From Oscillospiraceae bacterium (GTDB lineage Bacteria; Bacillota; Clostridia; Oscillospirales; SIG519), in contig SVMS01000016.1 of the NCBI GenBank assembly GCA_015067255.1, positions 1 through 45,655 on the forward strand: 45,655 nucleotides of DNA. Reading direction: 5' to 3'. The translations under genes and the position numbers were made by a program. Numbering within the stretch: the stretch's first letter is position 1; each line of letters starts with the position of its first letter. Shown here one piece after another: positions 13,292-36,663 of the stretch. The notes under the pieces are model-generated. The model did no database searches and was not told where the DNA came from. It worked only from the letters and a program-made list of their open reading frames with translations.

Positions 13292-14236
13292 TCATATATT
13301 GATGAAACTTTCCACCATATTTTTACAATGCGAAAAAATTTGGTCAAAATCCTTAAATTCATCAATATTAATCCAATTTATGCGTGTATCCTTCTTAAAC
13401 CAGGTAAGCTGACGCTTGGCATATCTTCTGCTTTCCTGTTTTATTTTGTCGACCGCTTCTTCAAGTCCGATACCGTTTTCAAGATAATCTCTAAGCTCTT
13501 TATAGCCTATTGCCTGTATTGCAGTAGATTTTTCCGGTAAATCCATTTCAAAAAGTTCTTTTACTTCCTGCAAAAGTCCATTTTCAAGCATTATATCAAC
13601 ACGTAAATTTATACGTTCATAAAGCTTTTGTCTGTCTGCATAATTAAGACCTATAATAAGAGGTTCGTAAGGGCTTTCTTCAAGCCTTGATTTTTCATTA
13701 TGCTCGCTCTGAGAAACTCCTGTTACTTTATAAATTTCTAACCCTCTGATAATTCTTTTAACATCGTTCTCGTGAAGTCTTGATGCTACTACAGGGTCAA
13801 CCTCTCTCAGTTCTTCAAGTAATACTGCTCCGCCTTCATTTTTTGCTCTTTCTTCAAGAAATGCTCTGTACTCATAATCTGCTTTATAGCTTCCTAAATT
13901 CACATTATCAATAAAAGAGTTGATATAAAGACCTGTACCGCCCACAAGAAAAGGTAATTTTCCTGATACTGATATTTCTTTCACGGCTTTTTGAGCGTGT
14001 TCCTTAAACTTAGCAACGTCAAAGCAATCCCACGGCTCAACAATATCAATAAGATGATGCTTTATCCCCTGCATCTCTTCTTTCGAGGGTTTAGCAGTCC
14101 CGATAGTCATATGCTTATATATCTGCATTGAGTCACCGGAAACAACCTCGCCGTTAAAATATTTGCAAAGCTCTATAGAAAGCTTTGTTTTCCCCGTAGC
14201 TGTCGGACCGACAATTACAATAATTTTTTGTTTCAC
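13292..14236 (-). CDS. miaA: tRNA dimethylallyltransferase
   Basis: Adds the dimethylallyl group to A37 of tRNAs reading UNN codons; MiaB, encoded in the same block, then methylthiolates the product. The P-loop GPTATGKTKLSIEL, the substrate motif GDSMQIYKHMTIGTAKP and GTGLYINSFIDN are visible. At 314 aa it has the usual length. The start is GTG at 14236 with ACGGAG six bases upstream; that ribosome-binding site lies just outside a repeat element that fills the gap to mutL. Confidence 0.96.
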   Translation of the reverse strand: MKQKIIVIVGPTATGKTKLSIELCKYFNGEVVSGDSMQIYKHMTIGTAKPSKEEMQGIKHHLIDIVEPWDCFDVAKFKEHAQKAVKEISVSGKLPFLVGGTGLYINSFIDNVNLGSYKADYEYRAFLEERAKNEGGAVLLEELREVDPVVASRLHENDVKRIIRGLEIYKVTGVSQSEHNEKSRLEESPYEPLIIGLNYADRQKLYERINLRVDIMLENGLLQEVKELFEMDLPEKSTAIQAIGYKELRDYLENGIGLEEAVDKIKQESRRYAKRQLTWFKKDTRINWINIDEFKDFDQIFSHCKNMVESFINI

Positions 14237-14249
14237 TTTATACTCCGTT

Positions 14250-14449
14250 ATAATGATTGTTGTTTGTCGAAACGCTTAAAAGCGTTTCAATAAGCCGATT
14301 TCTCGGCTTTGTGCAATTGAATTTTCATACTATTCAATTGCACACGACACTCATTGCAATGGTTATTGGCAAATTTTCTTTGAAAATTTGTTTCAAAATC
14401 AAAGATTTTGTGTCGAAACACATATGTTTCGACTAACTATAACCATTAT
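14250..14449. repeat. 200-base intergenic element with terminal inverted repeats and a hairpin array
   Basis: The ends are imperfect 24-base inverted repeats: left 14250-14273 (ATAATGATTGTTGTTTGTCG...) and right 14426-14449 (complement ATAATGGTTATAGTTAGTCG...), 20 of 24 positions matching. Inside are consecutive stem-loops: GAAACGCTT/AAGCGTTTC, AAGCCGA/TCGGCTT, GTGCAATTGAAT/ATTCAATTGCAC, CAAATTTTC/GAAAATTTG, AAAATC/GATTTT and GTCGAAACA/TGTTTCGAC. There is no ORF. It covers the mutL stop codon and ends three bases before the miaA ribosome-binding site. A smaller relative lies at 36600-36663. It looks like a MITE-like or palindromic intergenic repeat. Confidence 0.75.
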
Positions 14450-16362
14450 CTTTTAAACATTTTTTCAAGCTTTGTTTTAGTAAGCTCAACCGCAATAGGT
14501 CTGCCGTGAGGACAGTATTTTACATTTTCATATTCAAGTACTTTATTTACAAGCTCCTGCTTTTCTTTTTCAGAGGTATAGTATCCTGCTTTGATTGCGG
14601 CTTTGCACGCCACAGAATGAAGAATATCGTCTCTGACTTTTAAATCTGCAAGATTTGTCGCACCTCTTACAAGCTTCTGAGCAATTTCGCTTATTGCTGA
14701 CTCAATATCAGAATATTCCATAAGCTCCGGTACTTCTCTTACTATTACTGTACCAAAGCCAAATTCATCTATATAAAAGCCTAAGCTTTGGAGCTTTTCT
14801 TTATTAGACAATAATGCTTCCGATTCTGTTTTCGATAAATTCAAAGTAATGGGCTCTAAAAGAACTTGACTTTCAAAACCGTCTTCACGACTCTTTAGCT
14901 GTTCAAAAATTATACGCTCATGCGCCGCATGCTTATCAATTATAAGCGCCTTTTCAGAGTTCTGAGCTATTATATATGTTGAAAATAATTCTCCTGTTAC
15001 AATATAAGGGTCTGAAAACTCTTTTTCTTTCTGTTCAAGCTCAAGCTGAGTCTGCTTATTTATCTCAATTAAAGGCTCTTCCTTTACAATCGGAGCACTT
15101 ACAACAGGCTTTTCAAAGCTCTCTTTTTCACGAATTTCTTTTATATCCTCTTTTTTGAGAACATTCCAGGCAATTCCCAAATCATTACCAATTACACCTA
15201 TCCCGTCAGAGTGTAAAGTGTTTGGCTTTACATACTCTTGAGCATTTATTTCAACTTTAGGAATAACTGTTTGAGCTTTATTTTCCTGAGGAGTGCTTGG
15301 AGTTTTAAAAAAGAAATCCTCAATAAAATCATTTTTAGCTTCTTTAGGGCTGTCTATAGTCATTTCAACCCTGCCGCTATCTTTATCAAGTGTACTTTTT
15401 ACTGCATCACAGATAATATTGAACATCAAAGGCTCGTCAGAAAACTTAACCTGTGCCTTTTGAGGATGAACGTTGACATCTACGTCTTTAGGGTTAATTT
15501 TTACATTTAAAACGCAAGCGGGAAATTTTCCTCCCATAACGCTTCCTCTGTAACCATCCTCTAATGCGGCAGAAAAAAGCTTACTTTTTATGCTTCTTGA
15601 ATTAACAAAAAACAACTGCATATTTCTGTTAGCCTTTGAATAAACAGGCTTTGAAATATATCCCGATACCTCTGTTGAACCGGAAGTAAATTCAACCTCA
15701 AGCATAGATGAAGCAAAAAATTTTCCAAAAAGGCTGTAAATTACGCTCATAAGCTTGCCGTCTCCGGCGGTATAGAGAGCTTCTGCTCCATCCTTTATAA
15801 ACGTAAAGGCAATTTGAGGATTTGAAATAGCTGCATTTTGAACAACTGTTGAAATAAGTGCAGCCTCGGTGCTGTCCTTCTTCAAAAAGGCAAGTCTTGC
15901 AGGAGTGTTATAAAAAAGCTCCCTTACAACAACTGTTGTTCCATTTGCACAGCCACACTCTTTTTTATATATCAGCTCATTTCCTTCAACAAGTATATCA
16001 GTACCTGTTTGAGAGCTTTCTTCTTTTGTAATAAGCTGAGTTTTAGAAACTGCGCATATACTTGCTAACGCTTCGCCTCTGAAGCCTAAAGTATTTATAT
16101 TAAATAAATCATCGGCAGTAGAAATTTTGCTTGTAGCGTGTCTTACAAAAGCAGTTTCAGCATCTTCCTTTGACATTCCGCATCCGTTATCTGTTATACG
16201 TATGTATTCTTTACCGCCGTTTTTTATTTCGACGGTAATTTTGGTAGCGCCGGAGTCTACAGAATTTTCTATAAGCTCTTTAACCACACAGGAGGGGTTT
16301 TCAACGACCTCACCGGCAGCAATAAGCTCCGCTGTTTTTTTATCTAAAACTTTAATTTTCAT
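14446..16362 (-). CDS. mutL: DNA mismatch repair protein MutL
   Basis: Couples MutS mismatch recognition to strand nicking. The GHKL ATPase motifs are present (ELIENSVDSGATKITVEI; DNGCGM; GFRGEALASI). The C-terminal half carries the endonuclease motif DKHAAHERIIFE, as in MutL proteins of bacteria lacking MutH, and CPHGRP close to the end. At 638 aa it is full length. ATG follows AAAGGAGG. The stop codon lies within the terminal repeat of the element at 14250-14449. Confidence 0.97.
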   Translation of the reverse strand: MKIKVLDKKTAELIAAGEVVENPSCVVKELIENSVDSGATKITVEIKNGGKEYIRITDNGCGMSKEDAETAFVRHATSKISTADDLFNINTLGFRGEALASICAVSKTQLITKEESSQTGTDILVEGNELIYKKECGCANGTTVVVRELFYNTPARLAFLKKDSTEAALISTVVQNAAISNPQIAFTFIKDGAEALYTAGDGKLMSVIYSLFGKFFASSMLEVEFTSGSTEVSGYISKPVYSKANRNMQLFFVNSRSIKSKLFSAALEDGYRGSVMGGKFPACVLNVKINPKDVDVNVHPQKAQVKFSDEPLMFNIICDAVKSTLDKDSGRVEMTIDSPKEAKNDFIEDFFFKTPSTPQENKAQTVIPKVEINAQEYVKPNTLHSDGIGVIGNDLGIAWNVLKKEDIKEIREKESFEKPVVSAPIVKEEPLIEINKQTQLELEQKEKEFSDPYIVTGELFSTYIIAQNSEKALIIDKHAAHERIIFEQLKSREDGFESQVLLEPITLNLSKTESEALLSNKEKLQSLGFYIDEFGFGTVIVREVPELMEYSDIESAISEIAQKLVRGATNLADLKVRDDILHSVACKAAIKAGYYTSEKEKQELVNKVLEYENVKYCPHGRPIAVELTKTKLEKMFKR

Positions 16363-21838: not shown

Positions 21839-21844
21839 ACCTTT

Positions 21845-22047
21845 TCCCTGCTATGTACGTGATTTGTAACGCAATTCAAAACCATTGACGAATTAAAGGG
21901 ACTTCGACTTCTGCAAAGGGTTTGCAGACCTCCCGGCCTATCATTTTGGATAGGTTGGACGAAGGGAGCGCGAGTTTGTGGAGAGATAACCCACCTGTGA
22001 GAGCAGGTTTCGGATTTGTTACTTACACGGCTGTGTGGGGATTTTTT
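21845..22047 (+). ncRNA. ssrS: Probable 6S RNA
   Basis: 6S RNA mimics an open promoter and holds the housekeeping RNA polymerase. The segment between the DUF1292 gene and ychF folds as one long rod. The closing stem is UCCCUGC (21845-21851) with GUGGGGA (22035-22041), then CGUG/CACG and GUAAC/GUUAC separated by small internal loops. Central hairpins include CUGCAAA/UUUGCAG, CCUAUC/GAUAGG and ACCUG/CAGGU, with CUCCC/GGGAG enclosing. The ends (CCCUGCUAUGUACGUG ... CACGGCUGUGUGGGG) resemble E. coli 6S termini (CUCUGAGAUGUUCGC ... GCGGCGGCAUCUCGGAG), and the 3' hairpin followed by GUUAC is also shared. A run of U (22042-22047) ends it. The length of about 200 nt fits. No clear promoter was found; it may be processed. 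Confidence 0.72.
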
Positions 22048-29441: not shown

Positions 29442-29518
29442 GTGCCCGTAGCTCAGTTGGATAGAGCGTTGGACTCCGACTCCAAAGGCAGTGCGTTCGA
29501 ATCGCATCGGGCATACCA
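29442..29518 (+). tRNA. tRNA-Arg (anticodon CCG)
   Basis: Full cloverleaf with encoded CCA. The acceptor GTGCCCG pairs with CGGGCAT (first pair G-U); the D stem is GCTC/GAGC; the anticodon stem TTGGA/TCCAA encloses loop CTCCGAC, giving anticodon CCG for codon CGG; the T arm is GTGCG-TTCGAAT-CGCAT; then discriminator A and CCA. It is a single-tRNA unit with its own promoter and terminator. Confidence 0.95.
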
Positions 29519-36599: not shown

Positions 36600-36663
36600 A
36601 TAATGATTGTTGTTTATCGAAGCAGTTTATTTAATTACTGTTTCGACAAACTGTATTCATTAT
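36600..36663. repeat. 64-base element with the same terminal inverted repeats as 14250-14449
   Basis: The left end (36600-36623, ATAATGATTGTTGTTTATCG...) matches the left end of the larger element at 22 of 24 positions. The right end (36640-36663) is its imperfect inverted copy (18 of 24). Only 16 bases lie between the ends, so it is an internally deleted or minimal form. It covers the last 10 cmk codons and stop and the gap up to the plsC ribosome-binding site. Confidence 0.75.

Follow-up and report, generated by a model that had tools for sequence, protein, structure and literature searches.

What is a 200-bp, strongly folded, non-coding sequence doing inside the mutL-miaA operon of an Oscillospiraceae bacterium, and how did it come to be there? 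An earlier note on the 45,655 nucleotides analysed here (the window, meaning the whole stretch of DNA) had suggested either a MITE-like mobile element or a structural RNA cassette. We consider, with a probability of roughly 0.86, that the element is a non-autonomous, MITE-like DNA transposon composed of two self-closed three-hairpin units, which would insert at the AT within TTATAA-like sequences and would be moved by an enzyme acting in trans. The dispersed copies, the AT target, the empty sites and the identical recent copies lead to this reading. The features concerned are as follows.

13292-14236, minus strand: miaA, the host gene downstream of the insertion (Pfam IPPT).
14250-14251, unstranded: left AT of the putative target dinucleotide; the target is TT-AT-AA, here TT-AT-element (flank counts and empty sites).
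14252-14355, plus strand: unit A, a three-hairpin cloverleaf AATG...CATT whose closing stem is formed by its own two ends (fold and covariation).
14269-14288, plus strand: hairpin 1, GAAACGCT/AGCGTTTC (inverted repeat and fold).
14292-14309, plus strand: hairpin 2, AAGCCGA/TCGGCTT (fold).
14310-14344, plus strand: hairpin 3, with a perfect 13-bp stem (inverted repeat and fold).
14356-14357, plus strand: central dinucleotide GC between units A and B (alignment of copies).
14358-14447, plus strand: unit B, a three-hairpin cloverleaf AATG...CATT with a closing stem of 14358-14366 and 14439-14447 (inverted repeat, fold and covariation).
14370-14390, plus strand: hairpin 4, CAAATTTTC/GAAAATTTG (inverted repeat and fold).
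14394-14410, plus strand: hairpin 5, CAAAATC/GATTTTG (fold).
14412-14433, plus strand: hairpin 6, GTCGAAACA/TGTTTCGAC (inverted repeat and fold).
14446-16362, minus strand: mutL, the host gene upstream of the insertion (Pfam MutL_C and DNA_mis_repair).
14448-14449, unstranded: right AT of the putative target dinucleotide, which together with 14446-14447 gives the TAA of mutL on the minus strand (sequence).
36600-36663, plus strand: second family member in the window, a 64-bp internally deleted form with both ends and one hairpin (end match and fold).

The window also holds a 6S RNA (RF00013, 63.1 bits) at 21842-22045 and a tRNA-Arg (CCG) at 29442-29518.

The two ends of the element (14250-14273 and 14426-14449) are inverted repeats that match at 20/24 positions (83%), as the earlier note had read them, and the six hairpins and lack of an ORF that it reported were recovered as well. 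The RNA fold of 14250-14449 had a minimum free energy of -74.2 kcal/mol, whereas shuffled sequences averaged -33.0 kcal/mol (z -12.1) and none of 200 was as stable; the DNA fold gave a z of -11.7, and no ORF of at least 100 aa was present inside these coordinates. In the predicted fold, the six hairpins fall into two adjacent groups, each a multiloop of three, and the outer ends do not close one structure.

This two-unit structure was strongly conserved, with 96.4% of cells paired across 51 distinct full-length copies. Covariation was pronounced: 37 of the 76 pairs changed on both sides, none of 500 shuffles reached any of five measures, and a tree-based count gave 48 double compensatory changes. 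The two unit-closing stems also covaried when taken alone; in the stem of unit B, whose arms enclose three hairpins and lie about 80 nt apart, 7 of 10 pairs did so. The ends had been described as pairing the element, which did not hold: pairing of the outer ends in an end-to-end helix showed no covariation (306/500 shuffles as good) and was ruled out as a conserved fold, whereas the closing stems of the half-elements covary. The resemblance of the outer ends reflects that of the outer parts of units A and B. Each half closes on itself as a three-hairpin cloverleaf that is preserved by compensatory change, and the outer-end pairing is not so preserved. Between the units, the central spacer reads CATT-NN-AATG or nearly so, NN being GC in 38/51 copies and AT in none.

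At the junction itself, the 25 other genomes compared (order relatives and family carriers) have mutL immediately before miaA, lack the insert and show a gap of -17 to +18 bases, versus 209 bases here. The element had been said to stop three bases before the miaA ribosome-binding site, and AAC indeed separates its end from the GGAG of miaA. In-silico excision of AATG...CATT together with one AT yields TTTAAAAG-AT-AACGGAG, with a gap of 11 bases, an unchanged MutL end (Lys-Arg-stop, AAA AGA TAA) and an intact miaA ribosome-binding site. The mutL TAA (plus strand 14446-14448) does fall within the element end, as the earlier note had it, but the stop was regenerated and not newly contributed, since AAA AGA TAA is present even in the reconstructed empty site. 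The difference in gap length and the reconstruction of the site indicate, by sequence comparison, that the insertion is specific to its own lineage among the genomes compared and leaves both proteins unchanged. The copy would have entered the junction after the split from the 25 compared relatives and carriers, with MutL unaltered.

The element is one of many. Copies were found both in the same genome (G000; 1.84 Mb, 54 contigs) and in relatives. Ten copies in G000 span the full length, in both orientations and with unrelated flanks, and the nine outside the window are 74-91% identical to the window copy. The covariance model R1, built from these full-length copies, gave 49 matches in the genome, both strands and fragments counted, and revealed in addition a second subfamily (C1:119592-119806 and C17:35291-35504) and short forms. 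At C13:14470-14675 (L010 1491-1697), a chimera of the two subfamilies combines unit A of one with unit D of the other and keeps the two-unit order, an arrangement suggestive of an exchange of modules at the central spacer. The matching relative that had been noticed in the window is real: the 64-bp, single-hairpin short form at 36600-36663 matches the end sequence at 19/20 positions, where 0.00 such matches would arise by chance. The ends of the 200-bp form recur in internally deleted short forms of 54-65 bp and in a variant of 131 bp with four hairpins. Neither of the outcomes that the earlier note had set against its own proposal, a lack of further copies and fixation of the sequence in all relatives, was found.

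Beyond this genome, the end pattern occurred in 60 stretches of MAGs, mostly of ruminant-gut origin and assigned to Clostridia, Oscillospiraceae, Ruminococcaceae or Clostridiales, with one labelled only as "uncultured bacterium". Within those loci, R1 recovered 46 full-length copies with unrelated flanks, and 19 carrier genomes had 2 to 42 R1 matches each (both strands counted). The family is multi-copy, dispersed and mostly intergenic. Under strict thresholds, G000 was the sole match among 148 genomes in a class-wide sample, and the strict end pattern was present in 4/394 genomes of the order, of which G008 looks like a chance match. G126, G020 and G178 represent other families of the order; the first two have diverged copies that retain the six-hairpin plan, and those of G178 were recognised by the R1 model and sequence only. 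The element was not found in phage and viral-contig collections. A plasmid origin was rejected, the sole plasmid match being 46 bases in a Rhizobium plasmid that was read as chance. In the MAG G399, several contigs (L176-L180) end inside element copies, so the repeats probably limit assembly.

Most of 59 copies have ATAATG...CATTAT ends. Outside these ends, 58 copies showed T at positions -1 (44/58) and -2 (42/58) and A at +1 and +2 (47/58 each), and beyond TT/AA their flanks were unrelated. At locus L123 the site that is occupied in L110 is empty and reads cctcc-AT, with a single AT. In L102, a copy is nested at TT-AT-AA in the hairpin 3 loop of another copy, whose register is recovered when the flanks are rejoined with a single AT. 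The flank counts, the L123/L110 pair and L102 point to a target TT-AT-AA with a 2-bp AT duplication, a reading well supported by sequence on few empty sites, namely one clear interspecies case (82% identity, with a diverged right flank), a second and weaker one, the nested copy and the reconstructed mutL-miaA site. In the MAG SIG604, three copies of 198 bp are identical yet sit at different sites with different flanks.

Prokaryotic MITEs are described as shorter than about 500 bp, lacking a transposase gene, having terminal inverted repeats and a target-site duplication, being multi-copy, dispersed and mostly intergenic, and having a related autonomous element with matching ends (PMC10969869). 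The present element shares the length (200 bp, with no transposase gene inside), the terminal inverted repeats, the target-site duplication and the multi-copy dispersal. A search for an autonomous partner with the same ends, covering the hits in G000, the fetched loci and the viral-contig, plasmid and phage collections, found none; the MAG assemblies among these are fragmented and break at repeats. An end-pair search of the fetched loci and of unpaired ends in several genomes returned only truncated, short or nested copies. An IS630/Tc1-mariner source was rejected, as the target is AT and not TA and PF13358 is absent from 20 carrier genomes. An IS30 source was rejected as well, PF13936 being above cut-off only in G000 and G401, weakly in G404, and absent from most carriers; the ends of the IS30 loci of G000 and G401 do not match the element.

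We propose that an enzyme acting in trans, either a transposase or a recombinase, would recognise the ends AT-AATGRTTRT..GTCGAAA and place the element at the AT within a TTATAA-like sequence, which would leave AT on both sides. The 200-bp form consists of two three-hairpin units joined by a 2-bp spacer, the ends of each unit pairing together. The fold is probably needed for mobility, or makes the element tolerable in transcripts, and would not serve the host genes. The internal structure is conserved beyond what an ordinary deletion-derived MITE would require, and may therefore serve in some way other than those proposed.

Two alternatives concern the fold and are compatible with mobility. One is that the cloverleafs act as folded single-stranded DNA and are seen by a single-strand-specific recombinase, like IS200/IS605 hairpins or attC. 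The structure is conserved and no strand is clearly preferred, since a tree-based wobble test on the A-to-B strand gave 43 changes to G-U versus 27 to A-C (p = 0.07); the six-hairpin architecture is retained across subfamilies with quite different hairpin sequences, and carriers lack IS630 and few have IS30. However, the TT-AT-AA preference is symmetrical on both sides, as expected for a double-strand enzyme, whereas known IS200/IS605 insertions are one-sided and without duplication, and the one-hairpin short forms also have intact ends and AT flanks. We regard this substrate as unlikely, if worth keeping in view. The other alternative, to which we give a similarly low weight, is that the element is an ordinary MITE and its compensatory changes arose by hairpin-templated mutation (quasi-palindrome correction) and not by selection. 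Transversions that lack a wobble intermediate occur in many of the double changes, and both strands behave alike, as this would predict; the covarying closing stem of unit B, with its distant arms, and the six-hairpin plan common to diverged subfamilies argue against it.

A structured regulatory or processing RNA, whose transcript (terminator, stabiliser, RNase III site or riboswitch-like) would control the adjacent gene, is quite improbable. It would agree with the very stable, conserved fold and its compensatory changes, with the slight G-U excess on the A-to-B strand and with the position of the window copy inside an operon. However, among 48 placeable copies, 14 were codirectional on the plus strand, 16 codirectional on the minus strand, 10 divergent and 8 convergent, and both strands fold about equally well (means of -76.1 versus -76.8 for 51 copies; -74.2 on the given strand versus -72.3 on the opposite strand for 14250-14449). 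No terminator-like site was found inside 14250-14449, the Rfam 15 covariance models gave no family at the gathering score and only sub-threshold chance matches under relaxed thresholds, and the closest relatives and carriers have mutL-miaA without the element. The cassette half of the earlier proposal is therefore not favoured, because the copies have no orientation bias towards genes, whereas its MITE half agrees with the copies, AT target, empty sites and short forms.

A mobile AAA_14/DUF4143 ATPase gene as cargo or ancestor of the element is scarcely credible: a gene for a 411-aa AAA_14 plus DUF4143 protein does lie between a truncated B unit and an A-like unit at C17:35503-36995 (L043 1501-2993) in G000, adjoining a complete D-C element, but this possible composite is a single case, and its right-hand unit has the look of an independent, complete insertion. 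Neither of the other two DUF4143 genes in G000 has such ends, and the fetched loci held no further association, so the gene was rejected as cargo. Long arrays of short palindromes (TCGATATG...) flank a second AAA_14/DUF4143 gene on both sides (L133 ~400-870 and 2166-2450, C21 of G000), and palindrome units (CATGAATTG...) near 1900-2130 of L138 (C24 of G000) end in a tail like that of the present family (CGACAAACTACAATAATTAT); the arrays of C21 and C24 are probably different structured repeat families.

Returning to the MITE-like transposon, its relation to known repeats was assessed by their descriptions. REPs are short single hairpins, and REP/RAYT elements are recognised by a RAYT Y1 transposase and a GTAG-type foot; the present units measure about 90-105 bp and combine an AT target with inverted ends. 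REP/BIME/REPIN systems with RAYT transposases are alike in having paired palindromic units dispersed between genes (PMC2817692, PMC3116915). RUP, BOX and SPRITE of Streptococcus pneumoniae are also small, AT-rich, dispersed, intergenic and highly paired, with modular forms, nested insertions and no transposase coding capacity, and RUP and BOX have terminal inverted repeats and target-site duplications (PMC3049150). Their terminal inverted repeats pair together in the predicted fold, and RUP is linked to IS630-Spn1 (PMC3049150), whereas here the outer ends lack covariation, each half is self-closed and the carriers have no IS630. Correia/NEMIS and ERIC resemble the element as non-autonomous, 100-200 bp sequences between genes with inverted ends and target-site duplications (PMC2229807, PMC10969869), but have 5'-TA-3' termini and stem-loops formed by 5'-end/3'-end pairing (PMC2229807) in place of the AT of TTATAA and two three-hairpin multiloops. 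CIR of Caulobacter and Brucella shares two separately folding arms with a linker (PMC2229807); each of its arms is a simple inverted repeat that carries a GANTC motif, in contrast to the closed three-hairpin multiloops and the mobility evidence here. QMITE2 of Coxiella burnetii is similar in size (about 190 bp), in its terminal inverted repeats of 23-29 bp, in a very stable predicted transcript and in many truncated copies (PMC10969869), but its direct repeats measure 7-9 bp and no two-unit fold has been described for it. No description of the family was found in the literature on MITEs in Ruminococcaceae, Oscillospiraceae and rumen Clostridia, and as far as this literature was searched the family in gut Clostridia is previously undescribed.

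This new repeat family has an architecture unmatched in the literature searched: two self-closed units of three hairpins are joined by a 2-bp spacer, the target is AT and the structure is maintained by compensatory change. It raises the question of why a non-coding transposon retains so elaborate a fold and which enzyme moves it. A speculative answer, which we rate slightly below the two alternatives for the fold, is that the two folded cloverleafs would themselves be the transposition substrate of a recombinase of a not-yet-linked type with a 2-bp AT core, in a structure-guided system restricted to some gut Clostridia. In these bacteria, the repeats appear to enter operons of housekeeping genes and to break MAG assemblies.
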